From: Atopococcus tabaci DSM 17538
GTDB lineage: Bacteria > Bacillota > Bacilli > Lactobacillales > Carnobacteriaceae_A
Assembly: GCF_000429585.1 (NCBI RefSeq)
Contig: NZ_AUCD01000016.1
Span: 1 to 33,180 of the forward strand
Direction: 5' to 3'
DNA length: 33,180 bases
A program made the position numbers and the translations under genes. Below are positions 24,289 to 24,453 of this stretch, piece after piece; within the stretch, counting starts at the first letter, position 1; every line of letters begins with the position of its first letter. Below the pieces are notes generated by a model. It saw only the letters and a program-made list of their open reading frames with translations, was not told where the DNA came from and made no database searches.

Positions 24289-24335
24289 TGAAAAAACGTA
24301 TTACCTCGGTGTCCAGCACGGCGAGGCAATACGTT
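24289..24335 (-). terminator. terminator of the candidate small RNA (and possibly rlmA)
   Basis: AACGTATTACCTCG (24295-24308) pairs with CGAGGCAATACGTT (24322-24335), with one mismatch. On the minus strand it is followed by TTTTTTC. Confidence 0.88.
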
Positions 24336-24418
24336 AATTAAGCCTTTGACAATTCCTTCCTTTTTATCAGCTTCTGATGGGATGACTGATAAAAACAAAC
24401 GAACCAAAATAGCTTATG
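24289..24418 (-). ncRNA. candidate small RNA between rlmA and queG
   Basis: On the minus strand a strong promoter (24453-24425) is followed by about 130 bases without a plausible ORF and then an intrinsic terminator. The predicted RNA has a 10-bp hairpin (CTGATAAAAA/TTTTTATCAG, 24361-24395) whose 15-base loop contains the C-rich stretch TCATCCCATCAG. A purine-rich AAGGAAGG follows, then the terminator stem. The only start after the purine run encodes four residues. No known RNA family is recognised. Alternatives are a decayed gene, or a leader used to end rlmA transcripts. Confidence 0.5.
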
Positions 24419-24424
24419 ATTCAC

Positions 24425-24453
24425 AATATAACACGGGTAAATAAAGAATGCAA
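24425..24453 (-). promoter_or_regulatory. promoter of the candidate small RNA
   Basis: On the minus strand, TTGCAT (24453-24448) is followed by exactly 17 bases and TATATT (24430-24425), preceded by TGT, an extended -10. It lies 64 bases after the rlmA stop and points away from rlmA towards the terminator. Confidence 0.65.

Follow-up and report, generated by a model that had tools for sequence, protein, structure and literature searches.

What kind of RNA, if any, is made from the gap between rlmA and queG of Atopococcus tabaci DSM 17538, and does it act by itself or as the leader of the genes that follow it? The window analysed here is the whole 33,180-nucleotide stretch of contig NZ_AUCD01000016.1, and all parts of the feature lie on its minus strand. 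An earlier note, made from the letters of the window, had described a promoter, a hairpin and a terminator in this gap, had taken them for an independent sRNA-like unit of no recognised family, and had proposed that its C-rich loop pairs with Shine-Dalgarno sequences. All three parts are present where they had been placed. The -35 hexamer TTGCAT (24453–24448) is followed after a spacer of 17 nt by an extended -10, TG-T-TATATT (TGTTATATT, 24433–24425); the transcript start is predicted near 24418, and the predicted transcript, ending at about 24292, is ~127 nt long. Hairpin 1 (24403–24353) has arms at 24403–24386 and 24370–24353 and a C-containing loop of 15 nt (24385–24371, UCAUCCCAUCAGAAG). 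An outer helix, P1, in which AAGCU (24415–24411) pairs with GGCUU (24344–24340), is present in the single-sequence fold and in the covariation alignment. The bulged intrinsic terminator (24335–24291) includes the 14-bp stem (24335–24322/24308–24295) and the T run (T6, 24296–24291) that had been noted, and also a 2-nt bulge, CC (24321–24320), below an apex (24319–24309) in which three more pairs, GUG/CAC, surround a 5-nt loop. The AAGGAAGG segment to which attention had been drawn is there as well (24362–24355, minus strand), but it is base-paired, as part of the 3′ arm of hairpin 1, and shows no conservation in the relatives.

The impression that this RNA belongs to no known family did not hold. 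A covariance search of the whole window against Rfam gave a single match, RF01065 "23S-methyl" (24405–24290, minus strand; model positions 1–102 of 102, 58.3 bits, E = 4.9e-7), where the gathering score, the curated cut-off, is 50 bits. Both hairpins are aligned over their full length, the second is followed by a U run, and the family occurs in Lactobacillales at about one copy per genome; the source genome has one copy. The element is thus, to near certainty, a 23S-methyl RNA, and it is an additional member of an RNA family already known from lactic-acid bacteria but unexplained in function. Among close relatives 43 of 60 genomes have RF01065 above the cut-off, one copy in each, and in the order as a whole a match at E 0.001 or better occurs in 275 of the 395 genomes and one above the cut-off in 250; in a sample of the class all matches fell inside the order and none outside it. 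A pattern scan of named loci found the element in Alkalibacterium, Marinilactibacillus, Desemzia, Carnobacterium, Enterococcus, Tetragenococcus and Granulicatella, and the QueG protein of the window is closest to that of Desemzia (77.5%) among the loci compared.

Folding, the Rfam E-value and covariation confirm that the feature is not a product of chance. The window RNA has a folding z of -6.3, with none of 200 shuffles equally stable, and the structure was aligned in the window plus 30 members of its own and its sister family (f1 and f2). In this alignment 95.8% of the cells of the three helices are paired, 18 pairs have changes in both partners (mean of 8.1 in shuffles, none of the 500 reaching the observed value), doubly changed cells number 49 against a shuffled mean of 11.8, and sliding the helix partners abolishes the pairing signal. 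Compensatory changes had been suggested as a check on both stems, and both have them: double changes occur in 7 of the 17 pairs of hairpin 1 (94.1% of cells paired) and in 8 of the 17 pairs of the terminator helix (99.8%). The putative outer helix P1, which is absent from the Rfam model, is likewise supported by covariation, with 87.7% of its cells paired and double changes in three of its five pairs. Across families the terminator keeps its 14-pair stem, a 2-nt bulge that starts with an invariant C, and GUG/CAC; its lower stem covaries freely, unlike the bulge and GUG/CAC, and the bulged apex is the most conserved part of the RNA across all families. Two other interpretations of the apex were considered and rejected. 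It is not a widespread repeat, since pattern and model searches give essentially one copy per genome (the rare extra copies found in these searches are located after tRNA genes), and its loop, CUUGACA in many relatives, is not an embedded -35 of the downstream gene, since no -10 lies at a suitable distance.

The promoter is present and conserved in relatives, but the TTGCAT of the window, read directly, agrees with the -35 consensus at only three of six positions, and a generic promoter scan of the window does not detect the site because this -35 is so weak. Support for the promoter therefore rests on its TG-extended -10 and on conservation of the promoter as a whole, not on the -35. The TG extension is found at 92 of the 101 loci compared, TTGCAT is kept in relatives, most families have a spacer of 17 and f4 one of 16, and the distance from promoter to element is nearly constant within each family (for example, 13–14 nt at 30 of 30 f3 loci). 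The best promoter score in the 65 nt upstream of the element has a mean of 10.8; the corresponding means are 8.5 for shuffles and 8.0 for control regions taken from the same loci. Conservation of promoter and stems in relatives, which the earlier note had named beforehand as the point on which its proposal turned, is thus what the comparison found, and it is likely that the element is an autonomous transcription unit. The statement that the region has no open reading frame is true for frames of 60 aa or more, but a 41-aa frame with a TTG start crosses the element; we rejected this frame as coding, since in nearly all relatives it stops after at most about 20 codons.

The neighbours of the element bear directly on the choice between a self-standing RNA and a leader. 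The naming feature of the 23S-methyl motif is its position ahead of a gene that carries an rRNA methyltransferase annotation, and the Rfam type assigned to RF01065 is Cis-reg. In the window the gene for the rlmA-type 23S rRNA guanine-N1 methyltransferase (25368–24517, minus strand; NF008300, E 1.1e-45, below the curated cut-off) precedes the RNA rather than following it; the next gene downstream is queG (24182–23028, minus strand; TIGR00276, 397.5 bits, cut-off 200), and the second is trmL, of SpoU type (22970–22458, minus strand; TIGR00185, 199.2 bits, cut-off 190.6). In our survey of 113 loci with the element, rlmA is directly upstream at 81, and a same-strand trmL, queG-trmL or ddl-queG-trmL operon is downstream at most. 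Most close relatives (L021–L025 and L028–L031) have between element and queG a gene of ~340 aa that looks like a D-alanine-D-alanine ligase gene (ddl) by its sequence and that is preceded by a GTGTATAATAC promoter. The gap between element and next gene is longer in the window and f1 than in f4 and f8, and in f1 a promoter score of at least 9 is reached in 89% of those gaps to the next gene that measure at least 55 nt, versus 23% in shuffles; in the window a candidate separate queG -10, TATAAT (24223–24218), lies 36 nt upstream of the queG GTG. In three separate lineages (L078/L081, L097 and L206/L209) the gene downstream of the element is convergent, so no gene there could be regulated in cis by a leader; promoter, stems and terminator are nonetheless intact at all five of these loci, and at L206 and L209 both rlmA and trmL are missing from the neighbourhood. 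These convergent cases and the separate promoter-like sequences of f1 together suggest an autonomous unit. From these comparisons we think it probable that the locus encodes an autonomous sRNA of ~127 nt that would also end rlmA transcripts and, in some families, double as a trmL leader.

The main alternative is a cis-acting attenuator, to which we would give a real but minority chance. In this model queG-trmL, the tRNA-wobble-modification operon, would have the RNA as its terminated leader, and a signal that disrupts the terminator would allow read-through and raise queG and trmL. The operon found downstream on the same strand at most loci and the proximity of terminator and trmL in f4 and f8 fit both this model and the Cis-reg label: in the Streptococcus-like f4, which has no rlmA nearby, trmL begins ~20–30 nt downstream of the terminator, and f8 has a median gap of 29 nt. 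Such gaps leave no space for a further promoter, and trmL must in these two families be transcribed through the element. In f3, f4, f8 and f9 trmL is mostly the immediate downstream neighbour. In f3 and f8, moreover, pairing of the hairpin 1 3′ arm is equally good with the 5′ arm (98.7% of cells) and with the linker that precedes the terminator (97.6%), possibly a conformational switch. This alternative pairing is seen at L002, L011, L015, L077 and others, in columns 53–77 of alignment A2. Against the attenuator, however, are the three lineages that retain the element upstream of a convergent gene, the candidate TATAAT that queG of the window has for itself, and the lack of a conserved antiterminator. 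The alternative helix is strong in f3/f8 only, shares only about 3 nt with the terminator and is weak in the window, for which a riboswitch-like role of it was rejected. The three convergent-gene lineages argue against cis regulation as the universal function of RF01065, and the cis-regulatory label appears on this comparison to be incomplete.

Pairing of the hairpin 1 loop with Shine-Dalgarno sequences in trans, the mode of action that the earlier note had favoured, seems to us improbable. Within f1/f2 the loop hardly varies (CCAUCAGA), the same holds within f3/f8 (CCUGUU, also the motif of f4), and seven of its nucleotides in the window (UCCCAUC, in the loop at 24385–24371) are complementary to GATGGGA (24194–24188) at the queG ribosome-binding site. 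The loop is conserved only in some families, however, and many f5/f9 members have lost the C-containing motif; the queG ribosome-binding site of L026, a close relative whose queG occupies the same position, has no GATGGG; and the exact 10-nt loop complements in the genome are not systematically placed at start codons, only one of those near an ATG preceding a clear start codon. The searches with exact 10-nt loop complements found no target or protein partner of the window RNA, which is mostly paired and has little seed sequence left; these points, like the weak -35, speak against the autonomous sRNA proposed here. That the element is a mere strong terminator (3′ UTR structure) of rlmA with a fortuitous promoter and a functionless RNA is very improbable, since, although rlmA is so often its upstream neighbour and no other terminator is visible between the two (weak fold, -5.4 kcal/mol), element and promoter persist without rlmA in all f4 and several f1/f9 members, and neither the covariation of hairpin 1 and P1 nor the sequence conservation of the bulged apex is necessary for termination.

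For the autonomous sRNA we envisage the following. A vegetative extended -10 promoter (24453–24425) would drive the transcript, which would fold into hairpin 1 closed by P1 and end at the 17-pair terminator with its conserved 2-nt bulge; the same terminator would presumably end rlmA read-through transcripts as well. Where trmL starts within ~40 nt of the terminator (f4, f8 and part of f9) the unit must also serve as a partly read-through trmL leader, a role that is unlikely to be the main one in the window because queG has its own candidate promoter. The chances that the RNA has a function in trans seem to us about even; such activity is suggested because the element persists without its neighbour genes. 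The bulged apex at the top of the terminator hairpin could be what the stable RNA presents to a protein, as the universality of the apex across families suggests; alternatively, the RNA could pair through the 15-nt loop of hairpin 1. The broadest proposal, in which 23S-methyl acts in trans as an RNA conserved in Lactobacillales, with a protein-binding bulged apex, also carried by some tRNA transcripts, as its functional core, and in which the Cis-reg label is simply wrong, we consider doubtful. This question about the family is more telling than the element of the window itself: more than half of the Lactobacillales genomes sampled carry the RNA, the pathogen genera Enterococcus and Streptococcus among them, and it is catalogued as a methyltransferase leader. 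The comparison resolves the promoter, hairpin 1, P1 and the bulged terminator as separate parts, and the natural cases without any possible cis target make cis and trans models separable by simple deletions.

Compared with the RF01065 motif, the window shares the two hairpins, the second a terminator, with rlmA upstream and the trmL operon downstream; it differs in that its next gene is queG rather than a methyltransferase gene, an outer helix and a promoter are added by the present analysis, and the Cis-reg label fails at loci with a convergent downstream gene. Trans-acting sRNAs of Firmicutes with C-rich loops have an unpaired C-rich seed that is conserved across the family and pair with the Shine-Dalgarno regions of their targets, and 23S-methyl differs from them in having no such family-wide seed.

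The motif has been annotated as sRNA_111 in E. faecalis and sRNA_106 in E. faecium, ~90% identical between the species and predicted sRNAs that were validated by northern blot, with no function stated in the passages on them (PMC7724050), and it belongs to the core set of 27 S. agalactiae genomes, where the passage on it likewise states no function (PMC6064168). The two enterococcal RNAs are homologues of the 23S-methyl RNA predicted in the window and speak in favour of its autonomy; they differ from it in a shorter loop (CCUGUU) and in the alternative helix that the window is without.

Finally, intrinsic terminators of some tRNA transcripts in the same order have a lower stem, a 2-nt bulge starting with C, GUG/CAC (or GCG/CGC), a short loop and a T run like those of the window, but they have no hairpin 1 and no promoter of their own, and are located after tRNA-Lys or a tRNA cluster. 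Such bulged terminators directly follow tRNA-Lys(CUU) at L210:1534–1578, L211:1501–1546 and L214:1591–1636, where their lower stems largely differ from that of the 23S-methyl terminator, and they end tRNA clusters with tRNA-Gln last at L213:1501–1546, L277:1501–1545 and L278:1501–1546. In genus g15 of f7, which is without RF01065, a tRNA-Gly gene and then an AACGCA...UGCGUU terminator occupy the site upstream of queG-trmL (L275:1404–1543; L279, reverse complement, 1413–1543), and the sRNA may have taken the place of a former tRNA transcript.
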